Virus record (IMG/VR): IMGVR_UViG_3300032246_000075
Location: 1 to 34,362 of that record
Length of the DNA stretch: 34,362 nt
Strand: one strand, 5' to 3'
From: a virus
The position numbers were made by a program, and so were the translations under genes. Below the pieces are notes generated by a model. That model did not search any database and was not told the DNA's origin. It saw only the letters and a list, made by a program, of their open reading frames with translations. Below are positions 1,187 to 32,313 of this stretch, one piece after another. Position 1 is the first letter of the stretch. Each line of letters starts with the position of its first letter.

Positions 1187-1543
1187 ATGAAAAAAGACGT
1201 TGCCGACTTCATTTCAACGATGTTCCACAGCTCTACGGTGACGCACTTCATGCACCTAGCGACTGATTCGTTTTCTGTCCACATGGCGCTGGGGGCTTAT
1301 TACACCGAAATCATTGACTTAGCAGATCAGTTTGCCGAGGCTTACGCAGGGTGCTACGAAAAGATTAAGGATTTCCCTGAAAACTTTCACAACGCTAAAG
1401 ACCCTGTTAAGTACTTAACCAGCATCAAGGACTACGTTTACAAAAACCGTGAAGCCTTGCCAGACGATACCCAGCTCCAGAATATTGTGGACGAAATAGC
1501 GGCGCTGATTGACACAACCTTGTACAAGCTGACACTCAAATGA
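1187..1543 (+). CDS. Unknown alpha-helical phage protein
   Basis: A 118-residue protein from ATG 1187, chosen because AGGG at 1178-1181 lies five bases upstream; an in-frame GTG at 1160 would lie inside the terminator. The sequence is mainly helical (residues of the type FADQFAEAYAGCYEKIKDF), with no signal peptide, membrane segment or catalytic motif. I do not recognise it with certainty; the ferritin-like/Dps-like helical look is suggestive only. It overlaps the glycosyltransferase start by 4 nt (ATGA), implying coupling. It is the first gene after the early terminator, so it may open the late transcript. Confidence 0.7.
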   Translation: MKKDVADFISTMFHSSTVTHFMHLATDSFSVHMALGAYYTEIIDLADQFAEAYAGCYEKIKDFPENFHNAKDPVKYLTSIKDYVYKNREALPDDTQLQNIVDEIAALIDTTLYKLTLK

Positions 1544-2220
1544 TCAGGATATTCGCTGGTTATGACCCAAGGGAGGCTATTGGCTACCATGTGTTTTGCC
1601 AAAGCCTGATTGAGCGCACCAGCGAGGCCGTGGCTATTACGCCATTTTTTGGTAAGCAGCGGGACGGCACAAACGCATTTATCTACCAGCGGTTTCTAGT
1701 ACCTTACTTCACCAAGTTTACAGGCAGGGCCATATTTTTGGATGCCAGCGATATGCTGATGCTGTCCAACATTGATGACCTGAGTAAGCTATTTGACCCG
1801 ACCAAGGCTGTGCAGGTGGTCAAACATGAGTACCAGACCAAGCACCCAAGGAAATATATCGGTACACCGATGGAAGCGGCGAATCGGGACTATCCCCGAA
1901 AGAACTGGTCAAGTTTAATACTTTGGAATTGCGAACACCCCAGAAACAAGGTATTGACACCAGATTTTGTGGACGATCACAGTGGATCAGATTTGCATCG
2001 TTTCGGTTGGTTGCCTGATTCACTTATCGGTGAGCTACCAAAAGAATGGAACGTGCTGGTAGGTGAACAAGAAAACAAGAACGCCAGAATTGCCCATTAC
2101 ACGTTAGGCATTCCCGAGTTTGACCATTACCAAAACTGTGATTTCAGCAAGCAATGGTTCAATACCAAAAGCCGCATGATGAACGGCTTAATTAACATGA
2201 GGGAGCCAGTCGATGCCTAG
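1540..2220 (+). CDS. Glycosyltransferase (GT-A/GT8-like family)
   Basis: A 226-residue protein beginning IRIFAGYDPREAIGYHVF, typical of phage-encoded GT8-like transferases that move a sugar from a nucleotide-sugar donor. The hallmark acidic metal-binding segment is seen as FLDASDMLML near residues 67-76. Further conserved segments include DYPRKNWSSLILWNC, LHRFGWLPDSLIGELPKEW and a late ARIAHYTLG. It has no signal or membrane segment, so it should act in the cytoplasm, on DNA, a virion protein or a host precursor. The target is unknown. It is a second, unrelated sugar-transfer gene beside the 14.6-kb cassette. It overlaps the next start by 8 nt. Confidence 0.88.
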   Translation: MIRIFAGYDPREAIGYHVFCQSLIERTSEAVAITPFFGKQRDGTNAFIYQRFLVPYFTKFTGRAIFLDASDMLMLSNIDDLSKLFDPTKAVQVVKHEYQTKHPRKYIGTPMEAANRDYPRKNWSSLILWNCEHPRNKVLTPDFVDDHSGSDLHRFGWLPDSLIGELPKEWNVLVGEQENKNARIAHYTLGIPEFDHYQNCDFSKQWFNTKSRMMNGLINMREPVDA

Positions 2221-2368: not shown

Positions 2369-4773
2369 TGGCTGATTACCGAGACTTAGCTGCGGCGCTT
2401 GGTGGTGGGTATGGTCAAGACACAGGCGGCATCACGCCTGACACATTGGCGGCATTAAAAAACAAAGCCAAAACATCTGATTTGCTTGGAATGTTGAAGG
2501 TTGTGGGGTCTGGGACTTTAAGCAATCTAGAATCTTTAGGGCGTGGCGGCTTATCGCAGTTTTTGGGTGCGCCTGTGGATACCGCAAATACTGTTAGAAC
2601 ACCTTACCCAATGGAAGTGTTTGGGGATGTGAATTACACCCCTGACAAACAACTGCCTGGTGGGTCTGCTGACATTTTGGGGATGATGCCAAGGGTAACA
2701 AAACCCAGACCAGAAACGGCTGGCATGGAAATTATGGGCGGGTTTATGGCCCCAGCCATTGCAAAGGTAATGAAACCTGCGGCAATGGCTGCTGGCAGAT
2801 TGGCGGGGCAAGAGATTAATGCCGCCATGACAGGCCAGCCCACACGGTCATTGTTGGGAGACATTACACCCAAACCATTGATGGCGGTTGAGCCGCAAAT
2901 GCAAATGGCGCAAGCTATTACAAAACCAAAAGCAGAAGTATCGCCACTAGGGTTTTATTCTGCGGTAGAACAGCAGGCTTTGAATATTCCTAGAAAGCAA
3001 GGCACAGGCGCATCATTTCTTAATGAGTTGGCAAAAGGTCAAGACGTTAAAAAGTATGAAATGGAGACTATGGGGCTGGATGAGTTTTTGAAAAATAAAC
3101 CCAACGTGACTCGCCAAGAAGTGCAAGACTACATTGCCAATAACCGTATTAATGTGCAAGAACGTCAATTAGGTGAAAACATTGCAGAAGACCCTATTGG
3201 AATTGCTCAGCGCAAAATTGTGTTTGATAAGTATGAGCCTGAAATACAAGGTTTGTACAATGAAATGCAACAATATGAAACAAACATAATTAATTCTAGA
3301 AATTTAGCAAGTAAAAATTATGCTGAAGCTCATGCGGCATTAAACAAGCCAGGCAATCCGCAACCAACACCTACCCCGCAAGATTGGGATAATTATTATG
3401 CAGCTAAAAAAGAATTGGAAAGAGTAAATCAAATTCCATTAGATTCTAGAGAATTTGCACGAAAATTAAATACTTTGCGGGATGCAAGGGATGCAGAAGC
3501 TAATGCGGCATACACAATACCAGAATCAGAGCCTACTAAATATGAAAAATATCAGTTGCCAGGCGGTGAAAATTACCGTGAAATACTGATGACTTTGCCA
3601 AACAAGCCAATGGACGCAAGCAAGGCAGCAGAAAACTATTACACACAATTTGTTAAGCGAGGCGGTGAGCCAGATTGGGGGCAGCTTAATCCTGCCAAAC
3701 AGCAAGAAATAATGAATTCCATGCCAGCGCAGGCTAAAAACGCATCAGCAGCTCCAGAATATAGGTCTAGTCATTGGGACGAGCCAAATGTTTTAGCCCA
3801 TATGAGAGTCAATGACCGTGTGGATACTGACGGCAAAAAAATGTTATTGATTGAGGAAATTCAATCAGATTGGCATCAAGCTGGTCGAGAAAAAGGATAT
3901 GCAAGCCCCGCTGATAAAAAAACATTAGAAAATGAATTGAACAATGTTGCTAATGAAAGAAAAAATTTGGTAGCGGAACTTTCCAATTACGAGCAACAAA
4001 ATGGCTTTTTATCTTTAGAAATGCAACAAAGATGGGATAAATTTAAAGAAAAAGAAGATTTGCTCAAACAAAAAAATAAAGATTTTTCAAGCCAGCCACC
4101 TGATGCGCCATTTAAAGAAACATGGTATCAACTTGCATTAAAAAGGGCGCTTAAAGAAGCTGTGGACAAAGGTTATGACAGGATTGGTCTGACTACTGGG
4201 TCACAACAAGCAGAACGATACAATCTTGCCAAACAGGTAGATGAAGTTATTGCCAAACGCAATCCTGACGGCTCTTTTAATTTAGATGCAACTTTGGTTA
4301 ATGGCGGCAAACAGGAAACCATTGGCAAAAACATTCCTGCAAACAAATTGTCCGAGTACGTTGGAAATGACTTGGCTAAGTCTATGCAAGCGCAAGAAGC
4401 TGGCACAGATGTTTACAGCGGCGATGCCCTAAAAGTTGGCGGCGAGGGTATGAAAAAATATTATGATGAGGTTTACCCTGCTTTTCTTGAAAAACAAGGT
4501 AAAAAGTACGGTGCAAAGATGGGCGAGACATATATCAACACAAATGCCAAAGCACAAACAAAAGATCAGTTAGCCGAACAAATTTATGGTCGTGGAGAAA
4601 CTTACAAAAATCTACCAAGTGAACAAAAGCGCAAAGTTGATGTAATGTTTTTAGACATGATTAAAGAAGAAAAAATACGCTATTTAGATATAACCCCTGA
4701 GATGCGTAAAGCAATTAAAGAGGGTCAACCTTTGGCATCAATACAAGATGAACTTGCTAAGGCTTTAGCATGA
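2368..4773 (+). CDS. Large polyvalent-type phage protein, probably ejected
   Basis: An 801-residue protein. Residues 1-190 are Gly/Ala/Pro/Met-rich with short hydrophobic stretches, like ejected virion proteins. From about 193 (LGFYSAVEQQALNIP) and about 465-520 (HWDEPNVLAHMRVNDR, IEEIQSDWHQAGREKGYAS) it carries segments I recognise from phage large polyvalent proteins. Later blocks include PPDAPFKETWYQLALKRAL, GLTTGSQQAERY and a C-terminal YLDITPEMRKAIKEGQP. Long charged linkers separate them. Polyvalent proteins are thought to enter the host with phage or plasmid DNA and counter host functions. The middle is visibly A/T-richer than its neighbours, suggesting a separate origin. No catalytic residue can be assigned. 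Confidence 0.75.
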   Translation: MADYRDLAAALGGGYGQDTGGITPDTLAALKNKAKTSDLLGMLKVVGSGTLSNLESLGRGGLSQFLGAPVDTANTVRTPYPMEVFGDVNYTPDKQLPGGSADILGMMPRVTKPRPETAGMEIMGGFMAPAIAKVMKPAAMAAGRLAGQEINAAMTGQPTRSLLGDITPKPLMAVEPQMQMAQAITKPKAEVSPLGFYSAVEQQALNIPRKQGTGASFLNELAKGQDVKKYEMETMGLDEFLKNKPNVTRQEVQDYIANNRINVQERQLGENIAEDPIGIAQRKIVFDKYEPEIQGLYNEMQQYETNIINSRNLASKNYAEAHAALNKPGNPQPTPTPQDWDNYYAAKKELERVNQIPLDSREFARKLNTLRDARDAEANAAYTIPESEPTKYEKYQLPGGENYREILMTLPNKPMDASKAAENYYTQFVKRGGEPDWGQLNPAKQQEIMNSMPAQAKNASAAPEYRSSHWDEPNVLAHMRVNDRVDTDGKKMLLIEEIQSDWHQAGREKGYASPADKKTLENELNNVANERKNLVAELSNYEQQNGFLSLEMQQRWDKFKEKEDLLKQKNKDFSSQPPDAPFKETWYQLALKRALKEAVDKGYDRIGLTTGSQQAERYNLAKQVDEVIAKRNPDGSFNLDATLVNGGKQETIGKNIPANKLSEYVGNDLAKSMQAQEAGTDVYSGDALKVGGEGMKKYYDEVYPAFLEKQGKKYGAKMGETYINTNAKAQTKDQLAEQIYGRGETYKNLPSEQKRKVDVMFLDMIKEEKIRYLDITPEMRKAIKEGQPLASIQDELAKALA

Positions 4774-5087
4774 CAACCGAAACTAAAGTAGTTAAAACTA
4801 GAAAGAAAGCAGGCGGTAGGTCTGCGGGTACGCCTAATAAGGTCACAGCGCAAGCTAGAGAGGCGATAGCGATGTTTGTGGATGGTAATGCCCACCGACT
4901 AACACAGTGGCTTGATGACGTTGCTAATGGCGTTCCCGAGGCTGACATAAAACCCAACCCAGCCAAAGCCTTTGAGCTATTCCAATCGGTGGTTGAGTAC
5001 CATGTACCCAAGCTGGCAAGGACAGAGATCACTGGCAAGGACGAAGGGCCAGTGGAAATGGTGGTGACATGGGGCGGCGTGAAGTAA
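4770..5087 (+). CDS. Probable terminase small subunit
   Basis: A 105-residue protein whose ATG overlaps the upstream stop (ATGA). A basic N-terminus with KKAGGRSAGTPNKVTAQAREAIAMF resembles small DNA-binding proteins that precede terminase large subunits. The position immediately upstream of, and overlapping by 19 nt, the ATPase/nuclease subunit supports recognition of packaging DNA. Small terminases are too divergent to be certain from sequence alone; the alternative is a DUF5681-like DNA-binding accessory. Confidence 0.75.
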   Translation: MTTETKVVKTRKKAGGRSAGTPNKVTAQAREAIAMFVDGNAHRLTQWLDDVANGVPEADIKPNPAKAFELFQSVVEYHVPKLARTEITGKDEGPVEMVVTWGGVK

Positions 5088-6388
5088 TCCTGCCCTACAA
5101 CCCAAGGGCGGCATTCATGCCATTCCATAACAGGACAGAGCGCTGGTCTTGTTTAGTGGCCCACCGCAGGGCGGGAAAGACCGTAGCGGCAATCAACGAC
5201 CTGATTAAACGAGCCATCACTGAGGGCAACAGATCAGCCCAATACGCCTACATTGCCCCATTCAGAAGCCAAGCCAAACGAGTAGCGTGGGATTACATTA
5301 AGTTCTACGCCGCACCAGTCACCAAAGCCACCAATGAATCTGACCTGTCTGTGGAGCTGGTCAACGGCGCCAAGATCATGCTGTTTGGCTCAGATAACGC
5401 AGACGCTATGCGGGGCATGGGCTTTAATGGGGTCTACCTTGACGAATACGGCGACTTTAAGCCCAGCGTATGGGGTAACGTCATTCGACCCACACTGTCA
5501 GACCGACTAGGATGGGCGGTGTTTGGTGGTACGCCAAAAGGCAAGAATCAGTTTCACGACATTTATCGGGTAAGCCAGACCGTCCCAGATTGGTTTCTGC
5601 TACGCCTGCCTGCTACGGTATCCAAGATACTGCCAGACTCAGAATTGCAAGCGGCTCGGGCGCAGTTAAGCCAAGACCAATACGACCAAGAGTATGAGTG
5701 CAGCTTTGATGCCGCCATCCTCGGTGCGTTCTATGGTCAAGAGATGCGATTGGCTGATGATGAGGGCAGGATTTGTGAGCTACCGTTTGAGCCTGAAGCG
5801 CCTGTCTACACGGCATGGGACTTAGGCTATCGAGACGACACAGCGATTTGGTGGTATCAGGTAGTTAGGGGCGAGATTAGGGTCATGGACTATCACGCTG
5901 TTTCTGGCGCCAGCATTGAGCAATTGGCTGATGTGGTTAACTCTAAGGGCTACCGATACACCCGCCACCACTTGCCCCATGACGCTAGGGCTAAGACTTT
6001 GGCCTCGGGCGGCAAATCCATTGTGGAGCAGTTGGCAGCACATTTGGGTGGGATGAGTAAGCTGGCAATCGTGCCTGAGATCGGGATTCAGGATGGCATA
6101 CAGGCAGTGCGGATGATCCTGCCCATCTGTTATTTCGACCCAAGCTGTGATGAGGGGCTGGAAGCGTTAAGGCAATATCAGCGGGAATACGATGAGGACA
6201 AGAAAACTTTTCGTCAAACTCCTCGCCATGACTGGTGTTCACACCCCGCAGATGCATTTAGAATGCTTGCAGTAGCCTATCGACAAGAGGCAAGGGATCA
6301 GTTACCGCCCAAGGGCAAGACCCTACAAACCATCACTCTTGATGAGCTGTGGGATTATGAGATGCAACACAGAGAGGAACGCATATGA
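5069..6388 (+). CDS. terL: Terminase large subunit (packaging ATPase/nuclease)
   Basis: A 439-residue motor protein. The Walker A variant AHRRAGKT spans residues 31-38; Walker B is GVYLDEYGD around 121-129 with catalytic acid pair D125/E126; GGTPKGKNQF follows as the coupling motif. The C-terminal RNase H-like nuclease is seen from YTAWDLGYRDDTAIWW (first Asp) to HDWCSHPADAFRML near the end (last Asp). It cuts concatemeric DNA and drives it into the prohead through the portal encoded downstream. ATG 5069 overlaps the small subunit; the length is normal for podophage TerL. Confidence 0.96.
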   Translation: MGRREVILPYNPRAAFMPFHNRTERWSCLVAHRRAGKTVAAINDLIKRAITEGNRSAQYAYIAPFRSQAKRVAWDYIKFYAAPVTKATNESDLSVELVNGAKIMLFGSDNADAMRGMGFNGVYLDEYGDFKPSVWGNVIRPTLSDRLGWAVFGGTPKGKNQFHDIYRVSQTVPDWFLLRLPATVSKILPDSELQAARAQLSQDQYDQEYECSFDAAILGAFYGQEMRLADDEGRICELPFEPEAPVYTAWDLGYRDDTAIWWYQVVRGEIRVMDYHAVSGASIEQLADVVNSKGYRYTRHHLPHDARAKTLASGGKSIVEQLAAHLGGMSKLAIVPEIGIQDGIQAVRMILPICYFDPSCDEGLEALRQYQREYDEDKKTFRQTPRHDWCSHPADAFRMLAVAYRQEARDQLPPKGKTLQTITLDELWDYEMQHREERI

Positions 6389-6665: not shown

Positions 6666-8966
6666 ATGACTGAAAACGGCGCATACGAGGGCGAAGACCC
6701 TGGCCCATACTGGCACGACCAGATTGAGACTGCGATCAAGATATTTGATAAATGGGAAAAGCGCGGTCAAAAGGTTGTCAAACGCTATCGGGACGAGCGT
6801 GATGCAATAGAAATGCCAAGGATGAAGTTCAACATCCTGTGGTCAAACATTCAAGTTCTGTTTCCTGCCCTGTATGGCAGACAAGCCAAACCTGAAGTCT
6901 CACGCCGATACATGGATCAAGACCCTGTAGGTCGGCTGGCCTCCACGATGCTCGAGCGCGTCATGGAATACGAGACCACACAATTTGGCGACTTTGACTC
7001 AGCCATGCGTGGTGTGGTGGAAGACCGCTTACTGCCAGGCCGAGGCACAGCTTGGATTCGTTACGAGCCTGTCATTGTCAATGAGCGCCCCGAAATCGAA
7101 GGGCAGATGGAAGAATCAGACGAACCGCAGGTTTATGACACGGTGGAAGACCCCACCGAGCGCATTGACTCAGCTCATTCGCCTATTGATTACGTCCACT
7201 GGTCGGACTTCTTGCATTCACCAGCTCGAACATGGGATGAAGTGTGGTGGGTGGCTCGCGCTGTCTACATGACCAAGGATGAGGGCATTGAGCGCTTTGG
7301 TGACGTATTTAAAAACGTCAGCCTGACCAGCTCAAACACCGACATGGATGGCAAAAATCCATTGACCGCCAAGATGACCTACGACAAAAAGGCAATGGTC
7401 TATGAGATTTGGAACAAGCGCAGTGGTAAGGTTTGCTGGATTGCCAAAGGTTATCCACAGGCACTGGACGAGCGTGATGACCCACTAGAGTTGGAAGAAT
7501 TCTTTCCATGTCCCAAACCGCTGATGGCGACCACCACCACAGGGACAATGATCCCTGTCCCCGATTACTGCGAATATGAAGATCAGGCGCAGGAGCTAGA
7601 CAATTTAACCCAACGCATTTACTTGCTGACCAAAGCCTGTAAAGCCGTGGGTGTGTTTAACGCCGAGTTCAAAGAGCTGGCTCGGATGTTCAGTGAGGGC
7701 GTGGATAACAAGCTATTCCCTGTGACCGCATGGGCGGCGATGTCGGAAAAAGGCGGCTTAAAGGGCGCTATCGACATGATGGATACCTCGCAGATCATTG
7801 TGACCTTGCGAGAGCTATACACTGCCCGAGAGCAGGTTAAGCAGTCGATCTACGAAATCATGGGCATATCGGACATCTTGCGTGGATCGTCCAAAGCACA
7901 GGAAACTCTTGGCGCACAACAGCTCAAGGCCAACTTTGGCAGCTTGCGTTTGCGTAGCGCACAGGGTGATGTGGCTCGATTTGCAACTGACATCTTCAGG
8001 CTTAAAGCCCAAATCATTTGCAAGTTTTACCCACCTGAGTTGATCGTGGAGATGTCGGGCATCATGAACACGCCCGAGGGTCAGAATCAGCAAATGTTGC
8101 AGGCGGCTATACAAATGCTGTCCAACAGCACAATCCGCGACTTCCACATTGCGGTTGAGGCCGATAGCTTGGCCCAGATTGATGAACAGGCCGAGAAACA
8201 AGGCGCACAAGAAGCTATCCAAGCAATCGGTATGTTCTTGCGTGAGGCGATCCCCATGATCTCCCAAGCGCCTGAGACCCTGCCAATGGCCTCTGAGATG
8301 CTGTTGTTCTTGGTTCGCAGGTTCAGAGCTGGTCGAGGGTTGGAAAGCGCAGTTGAGCAAGCCATGAAAGCCCTGCAAGAGAAAGCGGCGGCGGCGGCAC
8401 AGCAACCACCACAGAATCCTGAGATGATGAAGTTACAAGCTGATCAACAGGCTGAACAGATGCGGATGCAAGCCCAAGCCCAGACCGATCAGATGAGGAT
8501 GCAAGCAGACGCACAAATGGCGCAGGCACAGGCTCAGTTAGATATGCAAATGCAACAGGCCAAGGTACAGGCTGAAATGCAGTTGGAGCAGATGAAAGCT
8601 GAATTTGAGACTGCGAAACAGAACAATGAACTTCAAATTAAAGCCAGAGAGATGGCTGGAAGGGAAGAATATGAGCGATGGAAAGCAGAACTTGATGCAG
8701 CAACTAAGATCATGGTGGCAAGGATTGGCAGCAACCCTGGTGTCGATTTACCAGTCATTGAAGCAGCGTCTTCGCAAATAACCAACGAGCTGGGTGCGCC
8801 GATTGTGGATGCGGTCAACAAGATGGTTGAGATGCACGATCAGATGGCTAATATGCACGGTCAGACTATGCAAAACATCGGCGAGGCCATCAAGAAACTT
8901 GGTGCGCCCAAGCGGGTAGTCAGGGGTGCTGATGGCATGGTGATCGGGGTGGAGGCTGTCCAATGA
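6666..8966 (+). CDS. Portal protein (P22-like head-tail connector)
   Basis: A 766-residue protein. The N-terminal region (WEKRGQKVVKRYRDERD, FNILWSNIQVLFPALYGRQAKPE) and the central SPIDYVHWSDFLHSPARTWDEVWWVAR are characteristic of long podophage portals. Residues about 575-660 form an extended Met/Gln/Ala-rich helical stretch (repeated QMRMQA, QAQ, MQMQQAKVQAEM), like the C-terminal helical barrel of P22 gp1. It forms the dodecameric DNA channel at one capsid vertex, docking terminase and then the tail. It follows terminase closely, and its stop overlaps the next ATG by 4 nt. Confidence 0.93.
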   Translation: MTENGAYEGEDPGPYWHDQIETAIKIFDKWEKRGQKVVKRYRDERDAIEMPRMKFNILWSNIQVLFPALYGRQAKPEVSRRYMDQDPVGRLASTMLERVMEYETTQFGDFDSAMRGVVEDRLLPGRGTAWIRYEPVIVNERPEIEGQMEESDEPQVYDTVEDPTERIDSAHSPIDYVHWSDFLHSPARTWDEVWWVARAVYMTKDEGIERFGDVFKNVSLTSSNTDMDGKNPLTAKMTYDKKAMVYEIWNKRSGKVCWIAKGYPQALDERDDPLELEEFFPCPKPLMATTTTGTMIPVPDYCEYEDQAQELDNLTQRIYLLTKACKAVGVFNAEFKELARMFSEGVDNKLFPVTAWAAMSEKGGLKGAIDMMDTSQIIVTLRELYTAREQVKQSIYEIMGISDILRGSSKAQETLGAQQLKANFGSLRLRSAQGDVARFATDIFRLKAQIICKFYPPELIVEMSGIMNTPEGQNQQMLQAAIQMLSNSTIRDFHIAVEADSLAQIDEQAEKQGAQEAIQAIGMFLREAIPMISQAPETLPMASEMLLFLVRRFRAGRGLESAVEQAMKALQEKAAAAAQQPPQNPEMMKLQADQQAEQMRMQAQAQTDQMRMQADAQMAQAQAQLDMQMQQAKVQAEMQLEQMKAEFETAKQNNELQIKAREMAGREEYERWKAELDAATKIMVARIGSNPGVDLPVIEAASSQITNELGAPIVDAVNKMVEMHDQMANMHGQTMQNIGEAIKKLGAPKRVVRGADGMVIGVEAVQ

Positions 8967-10909
8967 GCTTAGTTCTTGCCGATAGAGTTCGGGAGACAAC
9001 CCAAACGACTGGAACTGGAACTCTGACCCTTGATGGTGCGGTGCAAGGGTTTCAGCCGTTTAGCGTCATTGGCAACAACAACACGACCTATTACACAATC
9101 AACCGTGGATCGGAATGGGAAGTTGGGATTGGGACATATTACGGTGGAACGCTGTCTAGAGACACGGTTTTAGATTCGTCTAATGCCAAATCAAAAGTTA
9201 ACTTCAGCGCAGGCTCAAAAGACGTATTTGTCACTTATCCTGCGGAAAAGTCAGTTAATCAGGATGCAAACAATCGAGTATTGATTCCTTACACAAGTGG
9301 CACGACTAATGTTGGGTCTTTAAATGTAGGCAATGCTACTGTCCACACAGACTCGGGCGTGATCGCGGGTTTTACCGCAAGCGAACCGTTATATCTATAT
9401 ACAAGCCTGCAAAACACAAGCGCCAGCAACACCAGCTATGCAAGTTATGCGGTCAATGATGGTGGACATACCGCCTATGCTGAATTGGGGATAAATAACG
9501 CTAATTACAGTTATTCGGCTGCGGGGTTTCCTAATAATGGGTTTTCCACGCCATTGGCAAGTTTTGTGGAATCTTTTGGTGGCCCTTTAGTTTTAGGGTC
9601 ATGGGATAGTCAAAAAATCAGTTTTATTGTTAACGGCGCTGTAAATACCGCAGACGCAATGACAATTGAAACCACAGGCGCAGTAACAATTCCAACAGCG
9701 GCAATTACTGGCGGTGCAATCAATGGCGCAACAGTAGGCGCTACAACCCCTGCGGCTGGTACGTTTACCACGTTGATTGGTGGCGGTGGTTCTGCTAACT
9801 ACGAACAGATTACAGGTGGCGCAACTGGTAAGGCAGTTCAGTTTCAATCGCTTGGTAGTGATGCAAACGTATCTTTAGCTATTCAGAGCAAGAATACAGG
9901 CGCTATTGACCTTGCCGCTGGTTCAAGTGGTGTGAATATCAGCAATGGCGGTACTGTTACTGCGCTGACAAGAACTGCAAACGGCAGTGCTTACACAGGA
10001 TTTCCAAGCATTGCTATTTCAGTACCTACTACTGCTGGCGGCGTTCAAGCAACAGCAACTCCACAATTAGTTGCGGCAAATGGTACTGTTGTTTCTGGTG
10101 GTACAGGATATACATTAAACGATGTTTTAACAGTTACAACATCTGGCGGTAGTTCAGCAATTACTTTGACAGTTACTGGAGTAAGTGGAGGCGTAGTAAC
10201 AACTGCAACAGCCAATTCAAGTGCTTTAACTACCATTCCATCAGGAACAGTTAGCGTATCAGGTGGCACTGGTTCTGGCGCAACATTTAACTTGCTTTAT
10301 GTAATTGCCGCTACTTTCATCATCACAGCCGCTGGTTCAGGCTACGTTGAACAACCCACAGTCACATTCTCAGGTGGAGGTGGCTCTGGTGCGGCGGCTT
10401 ACGCTACTGTGGGTGGTGGTTCAATTATTCGTGCATTGGGTTTAACTGGCACACAGTCATTGGATTTTTATACTCCAGCAGGCATCAACACAGGCGTACC
10501 CAATTTTAGATTGCGTGACACAACTGGTGATTCATATTGGACTTCATCCAATCAATCGGTGGGTGCTGTTTTAACAGCTACTGGAAATGCAAATGCTATT
10601 GCTTTTATTAATGCAAATGGCACAGGTTATGTGACTTTACGCACTGGTGGCGGTAACCAATATGAGCAATTGCGGGTATCAAACACCACATCTTCTGTTG
10701 ATTACGTACAAATAACTGGCGCAACAACAGCAAGTAAAGTGGTTGCCATTTCTGCTCAAGGGTCAGACACAGATGTTACTTTGTCATTAGCTCCTAAAGG
10801 CGCAGGAACAATCAGATTTGGCACATACACAGCAAGTGTATTAACCCCAACAGGCTATATCACTATTACTGATAGTGGTGGAACATCTCGCAGACTTTTA
10901 GTAGGATAA
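8963..10909 (+). CDS. Tail fibre / fibre-like protein with conserved phage N-terminus
   Basis: A 648-residue protein. Its first about 95 residues (LADRVRETTQTTGTGTLTLDGAVQGF, GNNNTTYYTINRG) match a fibre N-terminal module common in phages. The rest is Gly/Thr/Ser/Ala-rich beta structure with repeated blocks such as VVSGGTGYTLND and ITAAGSGYVEQPTVTFSGGGGSGAAA. The end, YITITDSGGTSRRLLVG, is a common fibre terminus. It probably binds a receptor or decorates the head-tail vertex. The location between portal and scaffold genes is unusual, since fibres normally lie after tail genes; the second fibre at 25145 is in the usual place. Confidence 0.82.
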   Translation: MSLVLADRVRETTQTTGTGTLTLDGAVQGFQPFSVIGNNNTTYYTINRGSEWEVGIGTYYGGTLSRDTVLDSSNAKSKVNFSAGSKDVFVTYPAEKSVNQDANNRVLIPYTSGTTNVGSLNVGNATVHTDSGVIAGFTASEPLYLYTSLQNTSASNTSYASYAVNDGGHTAYAELGINNANYSYSAAGFPNNGFSTPLASFVESFGGPLVLGSWDSQKISFIVNGAVNTADAMTIETTGAVTIPTAAITGGAINGATVGATTPAAGTFTTLIGGGGSANYEQITGGATGKAVQFQSLGSDANVSLAIQSKNTGAIDLAAGSSGVNISNGGTVTALTRTANGSAYTGFPSIAISVPTTAGGVQATATPQLVAANGTVVSGGTGYTLNDVLTVTTSGGSSAITLTVTGVSGGVVTTATANSSALTTIPSGTVSVSGGTGSGATFNLLYVIAATFIITAAGSGYVEQPTVTFSGGGGSGAAAYATVGGGSIIRALGLTGTQSLDFYTPAGINTGVPNFRLRDTTGDSYWTSSNQSVGAVLTATGNANAIAFINANGTGYVTLRTGGGNQYEQLRVSNTTSSVDYVQITGATTASKVVAISAQGSDTDVTLSLAPKGAGTIRFGTYTASVLTPTGYITITDSGGTSRRLLVG

Positions 10910-13025: not shown

Positions 13026-14006
13026 ATGGCATACGCCAATAGTAATTACTCAGACGTTTTGGCAACCACCATTGAATCACGTTCAGGCATCGTTGCCGAT
13101 AACGTGACCAAAAACAATGCGTTGCTGACTCGCCTGCGCGAGAAAGGCCGTTACAAGCCTTTCACAGGTGGTTCGACAATTTTGCAAGAATTGTCATTCC
13201 AAGCAAACTCAACCGCCATGTACTACTCTGGCGCTGAAGTGTTGAACATCTCCCCAGCGGATGTGATCAGCGCGGCTCAGTTCCCGATTAAACAGGCAGC
13301 AGTTGCAGTGACCATCAATGGTTTGGAAATGTTGCAAAACAGTGGCGAAGAACAGATCATCGACTTGTTCGATGCACGTTTGGACGTAGCTGAAGCATCA
13401 ATCGAAAACTTGATCTCCACTGGTATCTACTCAGACGGTACTGGCAACAACGGCAAGCAAATCACTGGTTTGCAAGCTATGGTTGTCGCATCGCCCTCCA
13501 CTGGTGTGGTTGGTGGTATTGACCGCGCCACTTGGTCATTCTGGCAAAACCAGACTTTCGACTTCTCTAGCGATTTGGGTGTTTCTGCATCCAGCTCCAA
13601 CATTCAAACTGGTTTCAACCGTTTGTATGCAAAGACAAGTCGCGGCTCTGATGTTGTCGATTTGATCTTGTTGGATAACAACCTGTGGGGCTTCTTCATG
13701 TCCTCACTGCAAAACATTCAACGTTTCCCTGGCTCTAGCAAGATGGCTGAACTCGGCTTTGTTGCTTCCAAGTACATGAATGCTGACGTTGTTCTTGACG
13801 GTGGTATTGGCGGCAACATCCCCGCAAGTACTGGCTACTTCTTGAACACCAAGTACATTTTCTTCCGTCCTCACGCTAATCGGAACTTCGTTCCTATCGG
13901 TGATGAGCGTATGTCTACCAACCAAGATGCCATCGTGCGCTTGATTGGCTGGGCTGGTAATATGACTGCCTCGGGACTCCAGTTCCAAGGCATCATGACT
14001 GAATAA
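13026..14006 (+). CDS. Major capsid protein (HK97-fold)
   Basis: A 326-residue protein with a very strong ribosome site (AAAGGAGT at about 13012-13019). It has the N-terminal arm and E-loop type segments (ATTIESRSGIVADNVTKNNALLTRL, YKPFTGGSTILQEL), then a P-domain and a glycine-rich end. It forms the icosahedral shell. The position after scaffold and before a decoration-like protein is canonical. Codon use is cleaner and the GC pattern steadier than flanking genes, as expected for a highly expressed gene. Confidence 0.92.
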   Translation: MAYANSNYSDVLATTIESRSGIVADNVTKNNALLTRLREKGRYKPFTGGSTILQELSFQANSTAMYYSGAEVLNISPADVISAAQFPIKQAAVAVTINGLEMLQNSGEEQIIDLFDARLDVAEASIENLISTGIYSDGTGNNGKQITGLQAMVVASPSTGVVGGIDRATWSFWQNQTFDFSSDLGVSASSSNIQTGFNRLYAKTSRGSDVVDLILLDNNLWGFFMSSLQNIQRFPGSSKMAELGFVASKYMNADVVLDGGIGGNIPASTGYFLNTKYIFFRPHANRNFVPIGDERMSTNQDAIVRLIGWAGNMTASGLQFQGIMTE

Positions 14007-14017
14007 GGAGCACAAAA

Positions 14018-14551
14018 ATGGCTGATTACGTCACCGATGGCAAAATTGGTATTGATTTGACCGCTACTTATGCGTCCACATCTGCCGGTTCAACTTCACT
14101 GTTCCCTGTTACCCCTGGTAGCAGAGTTACAACTTCAAATAACGGCGTGTACATTTTTGCTCGCGCCGAATCCGATATTGCAGCCTATGACGCTGTGATC
14201 ATGAGCACATACAGCGATTCAGCGAGCCAAACTCCTGTACTTCGCGCTGTGCCTGTGACCACCGCTAATGCCGCTGCATTGGGTTACAACATGGTGGGCT
14301 TTGCCCAAAATGCCATCACTTCCAGCTACTACGGCTGGATTGGTATTAACGGTGTGTTGAAGGTTAACTTGCTGGTTGCTTGCAATCCTAAAGTGCCTTT
14401 GTACACCACTTCAACCGCTGGTAAGCTGGATGACACTACTGTGTCAGCCGGTTACATTCAAGGTATCGTTGCCAACACTTCTGCGACAAGTGCATCCGCA
14501 CCTTATTGCGTGGTCAACAACGCTGGCTTGATGACTTCTAACCCAGTTTAA
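14018..14551 (+). CDS. Putative head decoration protein
   Basis: A 177-residue protein with a strong AAGGAG site 7-8 bases upstream. It is small-residue-rich and beta-rich (YASTSAGSTSLFPVTPGSRVTTSNNG, YYGWIGINGVLKVNLLVACNPKVPLYTTSTAGKLDD). Proteins of this size and style directly after the major capsid gene often stabilise or decorate the shell. The function is inferred from position and composition. A hairpin terminator follows at once. Confidence 0.78.
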   Translation: MADYVTDGKIGIDLTATYASTSAGSTSLFPVTPGSRVTTSNNGVYIFARAESDIAAYDAVIMSTYSDSASQTPVLRAVPVTTANAAALGYNMVGFAQNAITSSYYGWIGINGVLKVNLLVACNPKVPLYTTSTAGKLDDTTVSAGYIQGIVANTSATSASAPYCVVNNAGLMTSNPV

Positions 14552-14558
14552 AGTGGAT

Positions 14559-14588
14559 GCCTCCTCCTCACAAGGGAGGGGGCTTTTT
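14559..14588 (+). terminator. Intrinsic terminator after head genes; holds next ribosome site
   Basis: GCCTCCTCC at 14559-14567 pairs with the GGGAGGGGGC segment at 14574-14583 (one internal T-G wobble), followed by five Ts at 14584-14588. The G-rich 3' arm also acts as the Shine-Dalgarno site for ATG 14590. It is likely a partial terminator that reduces transcription into the glycan cassette. Confidence 0.85.
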
Positions 14589-14589
14589 A

Positions 14590-16224
14590 ATGGCATTTGT
14601 TCCCCTAAAAATCATTGGTAAATGTGTCGCAGATGACGAGACACTGTTTGCAAACATGGATGCCGCCATTGCTCGGGGTTATCCGCAAATCACCAAATCT
14701 GGTGATCCAAAAGAAGATGTGATTGCGCTGGTGGCCTCTGGGCCAAGCGTAGCGGGGCAGATAGATACCATTAAAAAGATGCAAAAGTCTGGCACAAAGA
14801 TTGTTGCCATTAAAGACGCGCACGATTGGCTGATTAGCCAAGGATTGATTCCAGACTATGCGCTGGCGATTGACCCACAAGAACACCGTTGGAATTGCTT
14901 TAAAACGCCGCACAAGGGCGTTCAATACATGATTGCAAGCCAATGCCACCAGTCAATGTTTGAGCACCTTGAAGGCCAGAATATTACGATCTGGCATCCA
15001 TACATTACCAAAGGCCAAAACCGTCCAAAGAATTCCATGTTGATTGGCGGCGGCACAACTTCTGGCCTCAGAGCCATTTCCCTGTACTACGTCCTTGGCT
15101 GGCGCCACTTTGCCTTGTTTGGATTTGATTCTTGCAATGATGGCGACAAGCTCAGAGTTAACGGCGACCCGATTAAAGAGGCCGACAAGCTCAATGAGGT
15201 CAGGATTGACCCAAATGGCGAAACGTTTTACTGCAATGCTTCTATGGCGCTTCAGGCCGAGCATTTCCAGACCTATTACGATTACTTGCCAGACGCAAGG
15301 TTTTACCCATTTGGGCATGGCTTGATTCAGGCCATTATCAAAAAGCGGGAAGAGAATGCGGTTGAGTTGCAAGCACTGATTGACGCAGGCCAACAAAACA
15401 ATGAGCGCACTTCATTCATTCATTGGGGTAATGAGAGTGCAGCAAGCTGGCGCTATCGGGCCAACATACCTGCGGGGGATTGGGCAAGCCTAAACGACCT
15501 GACCGCAGATACCTTGATATTTGCCAAGCCGCAGGCTAATGAGCTGATGGACATGGCCCGAGCCAAAGCCCGAGGTGCTTGGGTGGTGGTGGACTTTTGT
15601 GATGATCATTTTGATTGGCCTCACTACCAAGAAGCGCTACGCCTTGCCGATGCAGTGACCTGCGCCACCACCGAAATGGAAAAAAGAATTAAAGAGTTGG
15701 GCAAAGATGCAACTGTCATTGCCGACCCTTATGAGTACCCCGAGATGCCACCGCACTGCAATGGGGTTAATTTGCTATGGTATGGGCATCATGTCAACCG
15801 TGACAGCCTGCAACGCATACTGCCTGACCTTAAGGGTTATCCCTTGCGGGTTGTATCTAACTTTGATGGGGCAATCCCTTGGTCTAAAGAGACCATGCTG
15901 GAAGAATTTGCCCGAGCCGATATAGTGGTGATCCCTGCCACAGCTCCTTACAAGAGCGCAAACAGGGCAATTGAGGCGATTCGACAGGGTTGTTTTGTGG
16001 TGGCAGAGCCGCACCCAGCACTGGAGGGTTTCCCGATCTACATCGGCAACATCAAAGAGGGAATCGAATGGACAAAACAACAGGACATGACCGCGCTAAT
16101 TACCAAGGCGCAGAAGTTCGTGATGGCAGAATTCACGCCTCAAACACTGATCGACAAGTGGAAGACCGCTACGAAACGGCCTATAACCTTGGATGCGGAA
16201 GCAAAAAATGGGACGGTTGGATAA
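14590..16224 (+). CDS. DUF115 (MptE/Maf-like) domain fused to GT-B glycosyltransferase
   Basis: A 544-residue protein from ATG 14590; an ATG at 14557 lies inside the terminator and is rejected. Residues about 50-210 are a DUF115 domain: ALVASGPSV, PDYALAIDPQEH, YMIASQCHQ, IGGGTTSGLRA and FALFGFDSC. This superfamily includes MptE and the Maf flagellin glycosylation proteins. Residues about 285-530 look like a GT-B glycosyltransferase (AWVVVDFCDDHFDW, LLWYGHHVN, DIVVIPATAPYKSANRAIEAIRQGCFVVAEP). A sugar acceptor on virion or host surface is likely but unseen. It is paired with a methyltransferase and a second DUF115 gene. Confidence 0.85.
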   Translation: MAFVPLKIIGKCVADDETLFANMDAAIARGYPQITKSGDPKEDVIALVASGPSVAGQIDTIKKMQKSGTKIVAIKDAHDWLISQGLIPDYALAIDPQEHRWNCFKTPHKGVQYMIASQCHQSMFEHLEGQNITIWHPYITKGQNRPKNSMLIGGGTTSGLRAISLYYVLGWRHFALFGFDSCNDGDKLRVNGDPIKEADKLNEVRIDPNGETFYCNASMALQAEHFQTYYDYLPDARFYPFGHGLIQAIIKKREENAVELQALIDAGQQNNERTSFIHWGNESAASWRYRANIPAGDWASLNDLTADTLIFAKPQANELMDMARAKARGAWVVVDFCDDHFDWPHYQEALRLADAVTCATTEMEKRIKELGKDATVIADPYEYPEMPPHCNGVNLLWYGHHVNRDSLQRILPDLKGYPLRVVSNFDGAIPWSKETMLEEFARADIVVIPATAPYKSANRAIEAIRQGCFVVAEPHPALEGFPIYIGNIKEGIEWTKQQDMTALITKAQKFVMAEFTPQTLIDKWKTATKRPITLDAEAKNGTVG

Positions 16225-16670
16225 ACGTTGACTTGCACTCAGACATTGCAGATATTCAATGTGATCTGAGAAAGCTGGAGCTGGCAAGCAATTCTGCTGA
16301 TGCTGTGGCGGCAATTCACGTTCTAGAGCACTTTTACGAGTGGGAGGTCTATGACCTGCTGACCGAGTGGAAACGGGTGCTAAAGCCAGGCGGCAAGATG
16401 ATCCTAGAGCTTCCCTGCATGGACAAGGTGTTTGCCTACGTCACCAACTGCGTGATCAACAAAGAGCCGTTACAGCCATTTATGACCCTGAATGCGCTAT
16501 ATGGAGACCCCAAGTACAAGAATGAAGCCATGTGCCACCATTGGGGCTGGTTTCAGCGTCCATTGCGGGATATGCTAGAAACCGTGGGGATGCAGGATAT
16601 TACATTTTCTGAGCCTCGCTACCATTTCCCATTTCGTGACATGAGGGTGGAATGCTTAAAGGGGTCTTAA
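16068..16670 (+). CDS. Class I SAM-dependent methyltransferase
   Basis: A 200-residue protein from ATG 16068 with AGAGGGA upstream. Motif I is NLGCGSKKWDGWINVD from residue 40; the rest of the Rossmann methyltransferase core is VLEHFYEWEVYDLL and EWKRVLKPGGKMILELPCMDK. It resembles small-molecule/glycan-type methyltransferases rather than DNA methylases: no DPPY or target-recognition domain. It overlaps the upstream glycosyltransferase by 157 nt, and even motif I is inside the overlap. A GTG at 16158 is a possible shorter start. Methylation of a sugar made by its neighbours is the simplest inference. Confidence 0.87.
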   Translation: MDKTTGHDRANYQGAEVRDGRIHASNTDRQVEDRYETAYNLGCGSKKWDGWINVDLHSDIADIQCDLRKLELASNSADAVAAIHVLEHFYEWEVYDLLTEWKRVLKPGGKMILELPCMDKVFAYVTNCVINKEPLQPFMTLNALYGDPKYKNEAMCHHWGWFQRPLRDMLETVGMQDITFSEPRYHFPFRDMRVECLKGS

Positions 16671-17389
16671 CTAACGCACAGCGCCATGACCAGATGGCGG
16701 CGGCGCTTCACCTGCCTTTGCTGAAAAAAAAGGGCAAGTTCAATGACCGCAGGATGTCTATCGTTTGCTATGGGCCAAGCCTTGAAGATACATGGAAGCA
16801 GATTAGGCGGCCCATGATGACGGTATCGGGGGCGCATGATTTCATGGTGGAAAGGGGCATCGTGCCTGATTTTCATGTGGACTGTGACCCCAGAGCGCAC
16901 AAGGCGCAGATGTTGAAAAAACCTCAAAAGGAAACCAAATACCTGATGGCCTCAGTGTGTCACCCAGACTTTTGGGCGGTGCTTAAAGGCCAAAATGTTA
17001 AGGTATGGCATTTGGTGAATGGGGATGATTTGGAAACGGTGGCTTGGGTTGCCCAACACCACCCAGAGGGGATGGAAAGCCTGATTGGAGGCGGTTCTAG
17101 TGTAGGAATGAGAGCCATGAACGTGTCTGCTGCCTTGGGGTTTCGTAGATTCGATATTTATGGCATGGATTGTTCCTTTACAAAAAACCGTCACGCAGGC
17201 ACTCACACTGGCAAGGAACAGACTAAAATTCTGGTCAGAGTTGGTTTGAGAACTTTCCAGACGACACAGCAGATGCTCCAAGCGGCAATAGAAATGGAGA
17301 AATTTCTGGAAACGCAGGATGCTGAAGTTGTTTTTTACGGCGATGGATTAATGCAGGAAACTGCTTTCAAACTCAAGGAATTAGCATGA
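16652..17389 (+). CDS. Stand-alone DUF115 (MptE/Maf-like) protein
   Basis: A 245-residue protein from ATG 16652. It repeats the DUF115 motifs of the first cassette gene: IVCYGPSLEDTW, PDFHVDCDPRAHK, YLMASVCHP, IGGGSSVGMRAMNVSAALG and FDIYGMDCSF. It is thus a divergent paralogue without the glycosyltransferase half. It overlaps the methyltransferase by 19 nt and the following gene by 4 nt. The domain is related to Maf-type glycan transferases; the donor and acceptor cannot be read from the sequence. An A8 run early in the gene is slip-prone but the frame is intact. Confidence 0.85.
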   Translation: MLKGVLTNAQRHDQMAAALHLPLLKKKGKFNDRRMSIVCYGPSLEDTWKQIRRPMMTVSGAHDFMVERGIVPDFHVDCDPRAHKAQMLKKPQKETKYLMASVCHPDFWAVLKGQNVKVWHLVNGDDLETVAWVAQHHPEGMESLIGGGSSVGMRAMNVSAALGFRRFDIYGMDCSFTKNRHAGTHTGKEQTKILVRVGLRTFQTTQQMLQAAIEMEKFLETQDAEVVFYGDGLMQETAFKLKELA

Positions 17390-17976
17390 AAAATGAAGTA
17401 GCTGGCTGGACAAACGAGAGCTGGATGGAAGACAACCGAGGCAAGATGGCTGTTTTTTTCCATGCCAAGCAAGTACAAAACGCATTCAAGACCGCACAAG
17501 AAAACCGCCCAATTTTTGAGGAAAAGGTGTTTATCAAGAAACTTGTGCCAGGCGATTCCACTCTGATTGTTGACCGCCCAATGCGTCCTGCTGACGTTGA
17601 AGAGTTTCCCATTGAGTGGGCTCGATACGAGCAAAAGAAAGAAAACCGTGTAGCTGGTACGCCATTGGATGCGTGGCCTGTGCTGAGTGAAACCCAAAAG
17701 GCTGAATTTAGGGCGCTTAACATTTTTACCGTTGACCAGTTTGCACAACTTCCCGACTCGGTGGGCAACAAGATCATGGGCTTTAATGACCTGCGTGACA
17801 AGGCTCGCACGTTTATTTTGGCGGCTAAAGATTCGGTAATGATGGATAACGTCAGAGCCGAAACAGAGAAAATTATGCAGACTCAGGCTGCTGAATTAGC
17901 TGAACTTCGTGCGATGATTGGGGAGCTGACAGCTAAGAAAGCTGGTCGGCCTAAGAAAGAAACCGTAGAGGAATGA
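17386..17976 (+). CDS. Conserved phage protein with AT-hook-like C-terminus
   Basis: A 196-residue protein. It has RPMRPADVEEFPIEWARYEQ, GTPLDAWPVL and TVDQFAQLPDSVG blocks, a pattern I recall in podophage proteins of unknown function near tail genes. A coiled coil follows (about 155-185), then KKAGRPKKE, an AT-hook-like basic end. It may be a head-completion or DNA-associated virion protein; this is inference. It links the glycan cassette to the tail cluster by a 4-nt overlap upstream and a one-base gap downstream. Confidence 0.78.
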   Translation: MKNEVAGWTNESWMEDNRGKMAVFFHAKQVQNAFKTAQENRPIFEEKVFIKKLVPGDSTLIVDRPMRPADVEEFPIEWARYEQKKENRVAGTPLDAWPVLSETQKAEFRALNIFTVDQFAQLPDSVGNKIMGFNDLRDKARTFILAAKDSVMMDNVRAETEKIMQTQAAELAELRAMIGELTAKKAGRPKKETVEE

Positions 17977-17977
17977 T

Positions 17978-18895
17978 ATGAGCTACACACTGTTGCAGTT
18001 GGTCGATCAAATGTCGGCAGAGCTGGGTTTGTCCCAACCAGCGACAGTGATTGGCTCATCTAACAATCAAACCGTTCAAATTCTCGCCTTGGCTAATCGG
18101 CTGGGCAAGGATTTGGTCAGGGACTACGAATGGCAACGTTTGGTGCAAGCGTACATCTGGCAAACCCAGAATGCTGTGAGCACCACAGGCAACATTACTG
18201 CAAACTCTAAAGTCATCACCAATATTCCTGACACTTCTGGGTTGCAAGTGGGCAATGTGGTGACTGGCACAGGGCAGACCCCTTACGCTGAGATTTTGAC
18301 GATTGATAGCGCCACACAGGTGACTTTAAACGCGCCTGTGACCACTTCCACAGCCTCGGTTTCAATGACCTTTGCCAAGCAAGATTACGATCTGCCAAGC
18401 GGATATGACCGCATGATTTCCGATACCAATTGGGACAGGACAGACCACTGGCGCAATCTGGGTACGAAATCCAGTCAAGACTGGCAGTTCTTACAAGGCG
18501 GGATTATTTCGATTGGCCCAAGAGAGCGTTATCGGATTTACAACAATAAATTCCGCATCTTTCAAGCCTTGACCACTGTTTACAACTTTTCTTTTGAATA
18601 TGTTTCTAACTGGTGGGTTTGTGCCACAGGCTCAGATCAAGGGACAAAATCTGCGTTTACGGCAGATACAGATACTTGTGTGTTTCCTGATGATTTGATG
18701 TTGGCTGGCTTGAAGTTCTATTTCCTGAAAGCCAAGAAGCTGGATTATTCGATTGAGCTGGGTGAGTTTATGCGTACCTTGTCATATTGCAAAGCGCAGG
18801 ATGTTCCAGTATCTGCAATGTCTTTGGCTCCAGTTGGCATGAATCAATTGGTTGGGCCTTGGAGCGTACAGGACGGCAACTGGCCGAGCGTCTGA
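17978..18895 (+). CDS. Head-completion / tail accessory protein (P22 gp4-like)
   Basis: A 305-residue protein with GAGG before ATG 17978. The N-terminus (SYTLLQLVDQMSAELGL, ALANRLGKDLVRDYEWQRL) and central YDLPSGYDRMISDTNWDR are typical of podophage adaptors that bind below the portal and help hold packaged DNA. A Thr/Val-rich insert at about 70-130 looks like a small beta domain. It probably forms the first ring of the short tail. The stop TGA overlaps the next ATG (18895). Confidence 0.85.
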   Translation: MSYTLLQLVDQMSAELGLSQPATVIGSSNNQTVQILALANRLGKDLVRDYEWQRLVQAYIWQTQNAVSTTGNITANSKVITNIPDTSGLQVGNVVTGTGQTPYAEILTIDSATQVTLNAPVTTSTASVSMTFAKQDYDLPSGYDRMISDTNWDRTDHWRNLGTKSSQDWQFLQGGIISIGPRERYRIYNNKFRIFQALTTVYNFSFEYVSNWWVCATGSDQGTKSAFTADTDTCVFPDDLMLAGLKFYFLKAKKLDYSIELGEFMRTLSYCKAQDVPVSAMSLAPVGMNQLVGPWSVQDGNWPSV

Positions 18896-32222: not shown

Positions 32223-32280
32223 GAAACGCGGCTAGGGTAGCTCCCGAAAAGACGATTCTTCACCGTCCTGCCGAAGTTTC
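32223..32280 (+). ncRNA. Structured leader upstream of replication gene
   Basis: GAAAC (32223-32227) pairs with GTTTC (32276-32280), and GGC (30-32) plus AGG (34-36) pair with GCC (70-72) and CCT (67-69), making a long bulged stem. Inside is at least one more small hairpin (ACG 52-54/CGT 64-66). It lies in the 99-base gap before the DUF1376-type gene. It could be a regulatory leader or RNA-processing site; no T-run supports a terminator. Confidence 0.45.
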
Positions 32281-32313
32281 TCATGTGAAGATGACCGATG
32301 AAGTAAGGTTTCT

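Follow-up and report, generated by a model that had tools for sequence, protein, structure and literature searches.

A cassette of three genes next to the capsid genes of the uncultured virus IMGVR_UViG_3300032246_000075 is probably expressed late in infection and glycosylates the phage particle. The window analysed here is the whole of that virus record (34,362 nt, 34.4 kb; positions 1 to 34,362). The cassette comprises a gene for a DUF115 domain fused to a GT-B glycosyltransferase, a gene for a SAM-dependent methyltransferase, and a stand-alone DUF115 gene, hereafter DUF115b. All three genes are intact and lie between the decoration gene and the head–tail genes.

By its gene order, the phage is classed as an Mx8-type podovirus. 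The terminase (5069–6388) and portal (6666–8966) genes are followed by the gene for the Mx8-type major capsid protein (13026–14006, plus strand), which matches phrog_9953 (E 1e-103) and is 51–58% identical to the capsid proteins of Mx8, BUCT555, and a Bradyrhizobium phage. Next comes the gene for a Ser/Thr-rich decoration or virion structural protein (14018–14551, plus strand; phrog_29386, E 3e-6). Both proteins are candidate acceptors of a glycan. On the 3' side of the cassette, a p50-like gene (17386–17976, plus strand) shares 4 nt with the stop codon of DUF115b (ATGA at 17386), and the gene for a head–tail adaptor or tail tubular protein (17978–18895, plus strand; phrog_6013, E 4e-43, with a weak SU10_adaptor match) forms the right border of the slot. 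The order is thus capsid, decoration protein, cassette, p50-like gene, adaptor or tail protein, and a stabilisation- or amidase-type protein.

Two further features of the genome deserve mention. A gene for a 648-aa protein that weakly resembles a PHROG of virion structural proteins is located between the portal and scaffold genes (8963–10909). A near full-length homologue (69%) occurs in only one of the compared loci, whereas the flanking genes are widely shared, and the position is possibly a second variable virion slot. At 32225–32291, a match to int-alpA RNA was detected (Rfam, 38.7 bits against a gathering threshold of 35.8); an integrase was not recognised in the genome.

The fusion gene (14590–16224, plus strand) encodes 544 aa, with the DUF115 domain at about 14713–15141 and the glycosyltransferase half at about 15400–16180. 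Its PF01973 score of 67.0–69.5 bits in two scans is well above the curated cut-off of 34.6. The GT-B half remains below its Pfam cut-off (17.2 against 25 bits). In the AF2 model, which is of low confidence (mean pLDDT 62), the C-terminal half matches the GT-B enzymes HepE, PimA, and TarM, and the top fold match of the protein is the phage HY126 glycosyltransferase, which heads a list of generic GT-B enzymes. These predicted fold matches agree with the preliminary description of the DNA, in which the first DUF115 domain had been read as fused to a GT-B enzyme. In a search for the host via genome contigs, the sole result was a weak GT-B match in L286, a contig from a Betaproteobacteria MAG. The matching stretch (3864–4658) is a relative of the GT-B half only and is 33% identical to it.

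The methyltransferase gene (16068–16670, plus strand) encodes 200 aa and belongs to the class I SAM methyltransferases, with a Methyltransf_11 score of 43.8 bits against a cut-off of 21.2. Its start codon at 16068 is conserved in relatives and creates a 157-nt overlap (16068–16224) with the fusion gene in another frame. The protein is 197–200 aa long in all 14 relatives compared, with the overlap retained wherever it was checked. Four-fold-site divergence of the first frame, that of the fusion gene, falls from 0.47 to 0.15 inside the overlap, a drop in synonymous change as expected if both frames are translated. With PF01973 present in both neighbours, the methyltransferase is indeed flanked by two DUF115 genes, as had been noticed earlier.

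DUF115b (16652–17389, plus strand) encodes 245 aa, the domain spans 16730–17185, and PF01973 scores 65.3–66.1 bits in two scans against the cut-off of 34.6. The PDB ranking obtained with its AF2 model (mean pLDDT 79.5, pTM 0.81) is led by the flagellin glycosyltransferase Maf (5mu5, E 1.9e-7), followed by the pterin kinase of M. jannaschii (8sd5, 1e-5) and the sialyltransferase CstII. The structure check that had been proposed for a Maf-like fold therefore points, at the level of a predicted model, to Maf as the best solved match. A PDB sequence search with the alignment of the window's DUF115b alone returned only noise. The wider profile, built from 13 viral DUF115 domains, succeeded and places Maf (5mu5, E 3.1e-12) far ahead of the M. 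jannaschii pterin kinase (1.5e-3).

Thirteen columns are invariant across the viral DUF115 domains, including the PS of GPS, an Asp, the Cys of the CH block, the His of the WH block, and G.GL. The blocks GPS, PD..D, AS.CH, IGGG(T/S)(T/S).G.RA, and G(F/M)D(S/C), listed in the preliminary description, were all found in both copies of the window. The two copies are 27% identical in the alignment and separated long ago. Their sisterhood in the tree has a support of 75/61, with which an origin by tandem duplication is neither shown nor rejected. Maf itself consists of a Rossmann-like N-terminal domain, a central Maf_flag10 domain, and a helical C-terminal domain (PMC11339370). DUF115b contains PF01973 only, and the fusion protein has a GT-B half instead; lacking the domains that flank the central one in Maf, the proteins of the window are Maf-like and not Maf proper.

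The first cassette gene is preceded by an intrinsic terminator (14559–14588, plus strand) with a 10-bp stem and a T-run, which leaves a single base between its end and the ATG at 14590. The likely Shine–Dalgarno sequence, GGAGG (14575–14579), sits within the 3' arm of the terminator. The hairpin (dG below -10) and the T-run are kept in 39 of 39 distinct upstream sequences of relatives, even as the stem sequence varies, and the terminator reported earlier behind the capsid and decoration genes is therefore real. The in-frame ATG at 14557 lacks conservation, and several relatives have a stop codon after it; the true start is hence 14590, as originally proposed. Terminators 3' of the capsid or decoration gene are also common in relatives that lack the cassette (23/54, against 2/54 in shuffled sequences), and the cassette thus probably arrived behind an existing terminator. 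The terminator and the buried ribosome-binding site may act as a combined throttle of transcription and translation. This arrangement, together with the overlap with the next virion gene, suggests that the cassette is expressed with the late virion genes but below the level of the capsid.

Within the clade of the window, the three genes are in place in every listed relative that has a 96–100% identical capsid protein and a downstream sequence of 4.5 kb or more, and two PF01973 copies were counted in each of the eight clade genomes tested. The median dN/dS is 0.107 for the fusion, 0.062 for the methyltransferase, and 0.052 for DUF115b, close to the values of virion genes, namely 0.040 for the capsid, 0.046 for the adaptor, and 0.092 for the decoration gene. 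Apparent stop codons in seven relatives were considered as signs of decay and discarded, as they fall either in a 5' part that had been extended too far or at the native 3' end. Decay or absence in close relatives, which had been named beforehand as an outcome that would speak against the earlier interpretation, was not seen among the relatives examined. Conserved in place and with low dN/dS values indicative of purifying selection, the cassette is a working part of the core gene set of these phages.

The comparison of the slot between capsid and adaptor genes covered up to 80 records per scan of at least 570 capsid relatives. In the isolated and metagenomic Mx8-type relatives Mx8, BUCT555, ppBjS10J-1, and ctMlz233, the same border genes enclose a slot that is short, empty, or otherwise filled. 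DUF115 is absent from 28 of the 31 records outside the clade, and the remaining three are those with DUF115 in the slot. In five divergent Mx8-type contigs or contig pairs (L219/L287, L288, L309, L325, and L326/L327), exactly this slot is taken by a DUF115::methyltransferase fusion, with a phrog_1962 glycosyltransferase next in line in L219 and L288. For L219, no similarity to the enzymes of the window was detectable in either the methyltransferase or the glycosyltransferase; its methyltransferase domain was accordingly rejected as a counterpart of the window's, and its glycosyltransferase as a member of the family of the gene at 1540. The set has thus been built differently, with the enzyme classes and the place kept. 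These recurrent sets are regarded as the strongest evidence that the enzymes act together on something linked to the particle, and they add support to the earlier view that the placement favours virion modification.

Other occupants of the slot are a protein with a laminin-G lectin domain (L232), tail-type proteins (L229, L275), and a BclA-like protein (L278), all of which suit a locus for the virion surface. In BUCT555, it holds lysis genes, and the slot is therefore not reserved for virion modification. Elsewhere in viruses, DUF115 genes were found beside terminase and portal genes (L315) and near tail genes (L306). A broader proposal, which is plausible but falls somewhat short of being probable, is that the slot serves Mx8-type podoviruses as an exchangeable locus for coating the virion. 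Maf-like enzymes of a single domain, released from their flagellar role, would tag particle proteins with sugars from host donors and a partner methyltransferase would cap them, while other lineages would have assembled their sets differently or substituted lectin- or fibre-like coat proteins.

A GT8-like glycosyltransferase gene at a distance from the cassette (1540–2220, plus strand) is probably a further step of the same pathway. Its own PF01501 match is weak (16.7 bits against a cut-off of 24.3), but a homologue in the podovirus ctDrO704, 41% identical, passes the cut-off with 36.6 bits. This homologue is located between capsid and adaptor genes and beside a methyltransferase gene, in a phage whose capsid belongs to an unrelated family, and its position in a head–tail slot supports the assignment of the gene at 1540 to the same kind of pathway. 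In the survey of co-occurrence, all 25 of the 25 cassette genomes have the gene and none of the 31 records outside the clade does, but the 25 form one clade and are hence non-independent; taken alone, this count is weak evidence. The link between this gene and the cassette, first suggested in the preliminary description, is strengthened by the ctDrO704 homologue. The ctDrO704 slot (L344, 5254–8687) also contains genes for a TPR protein and an HNH endonuclease next to the methyltransferase and GT8 genes. In the window, the gene directly 5' of the GT8-like gene (1160–1543) encodes a DUF5856 protein (PF19174, 78.8 bits) that matches phrog_858, a "starvation-inducible transcriptional regulator".

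In the proposed pathway, a Maf-like DUF115 protein (the stand-alone protein, the fusion half, or both) would transfer an activated sugar made by the host to Ser/Thr residues of a virion protein. The acceptor would be a newly made protein of the virion surface, and the decoration and capsid proteins, whose genes immediately precede the cassette, are the most plausible choices. Extension of the glycan would fall to the GT-B half of the fusion and to the separate GT8-like enzyme, and the methyltransferase would cap the glycan by O-methylation. We infer the sugar, the acceptor, and the enzyme activities from the sequences. The Ser and Thr content of the decoration protein reaches 22% in the clade of the window; this clade alone is set apart by its Ser/Thr content, the other cassette phages are not separated, and the measure gives no pointer to the acceptor.

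Maf acts on surface-exposed Ser/Thr residues without a known sequon and accepts several CMP-sugars, including KDO (PMC11339370). Given this broad acceptance, the phage could, by analogy, use whichever CMP-sugar its host makes. The preliminary description had named nonulosonic sugars, and this label did not stand. Genes for the synthesis of a sugar donor, NeuB and CMP-sugar synthetase included, were looked for in the record and not found, which makes "nonulosonic acid" only a guess, and the full three-domain architecture of Maf is absent from both proteins. The other parts of that interpretation were retained, namely the Maf-like fold, a glycan cassette as opposed to pterin metabolism, and a place in the virion operon behind a terminator.

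Sets of glycosyltransferases and methyltransferases often modify surface polysaccharides, and such a composition is also what would be expected if the cassette altered the LPS, capsule, flagellum, or pilus on the surface of the host cell, perhaps as a barrier to superinfection or to the re-adsorption of progeny to debris. The action of Maf on flagellin (PMC11339370) and the lysis genes in the same slot of BUCT555 would be compatible with this role. It is nevertheless unlikely, as the cassette lies within the virion operon behind the terminator on the capsid side and overlaps the next structural gene. From this position, late expression is expected, leaving little time for surface remodelling. 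Moreover, the cassette showed neither a membrane flippase nor a polymerase, and the recurrence beside capsid genes in divergent phages also speaks against a target on the host.

Loss of Maf blocks flagellar assembly, and the phage enzymes might by the same token glycosylate or methylate a protein that is not exposed on the surface, such as an ejection or tail protein, for the sake of assembly. The cassette borders the p50 and adaptor genes with a translational overlap, and the DUF115 genes that other viruses have near tail genes or next to those for terminase and portal would fit this possibility too. However, isolated relatives assemble particles without the cassette, which is therefore not generally needed for this head–tail architecture, and an assembly role is judged improbable. 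Modification of phage DNA or nucleotides is very unlikely, whether by glucosylation or hypermodification of bases or by a diphosphokinase reaction of the pterin type. In its favour, the name of PF01973 derives from the pterin kinase MptE, a pterin kinase is the second fold match of DUF115b, and the HY126 glycosyltransferase is the top fold match of the fusion. Against it, the DUF115 profile is far nearer to Maf, HY126 heads a list of generic GT-B enzymes, the window proteins that were scanned included no recognisable hydroxymethylase or other enzyme of base modification, and the genes belong to the late structural operon.

If glycosylation of the particle is the true function, environmental phages coat their particles by means of a cytosolic O-glycosylation enzyme of the Maf type, a type known until now for flagellin. 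The DUF115 family of uncultured Caudovirales would then gain a clear function. Such proteins are present in structure libraries under the labels "MptE-like" or "pterin kinase-like". A full-text literature search for DUF115 or MptE-like proteins together with phages gave no functional account, and searches of annotated phages with the DUF115 and methyltransferase proteins of the window gave no match. The recurrent slot would also make it possible to predict modified virions from nothing but a genome sequence. As single-domain proteins, the Maf-like enzymes would represent compact tools for protein glycosylation.

Several known systems resemble the cassette in part. Mx8, BUCT555, ppBjS10J-1, and ctMlz233 share the order of capsid, p50, adaptor, and stabilisation genes with the window but, unlike it, are without any DUF115 gene. 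Maf (5mu5) has the Maf_flag10/DUF115 (PF01973) domain in common with the phage proteins and is their best match by profile and by predicted fold. The phage proteins, in contrast, consist of this central domain only, alone or fused to GT-B, and their genes adjoin those of the capsid, not of flagellin. The archaeal 6-HMP diphosphokinase MptE (8sd5) belongs to the same Pfam family and has the same core fold, but its profile match is much weaker, and the phage genes lack a pterin context and are fused to glycosyltransferase or methyltransferase domains. The fold similarity of DUF115b to the GT42 sialyltransferase CstII is distant, with marginal scores only; the DUF115 homologue of L219 matches a PHROG named alpha-2,3-sialyltransferase.

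A functional parallel comes from mycobacteriophages, which are described as carrying glycans on capsid proteins (Freeman et al. 2023, as cited in excerpts of PMC11256854 and PMC12619734). According to the excerpt of PMC11256854, Che8 and Rita have capsid-protein glycans and phage-encoded glycosyltransferases, an arrangement like the one proposed here from genes alone. They represent a different phage lineage, and that excerpt does not mention a DUF115 or Maf enzyme. Glycans on phage capsids are thus already known, and a version made by Maf-like DUF115 proteins would be a new variant of this modification.
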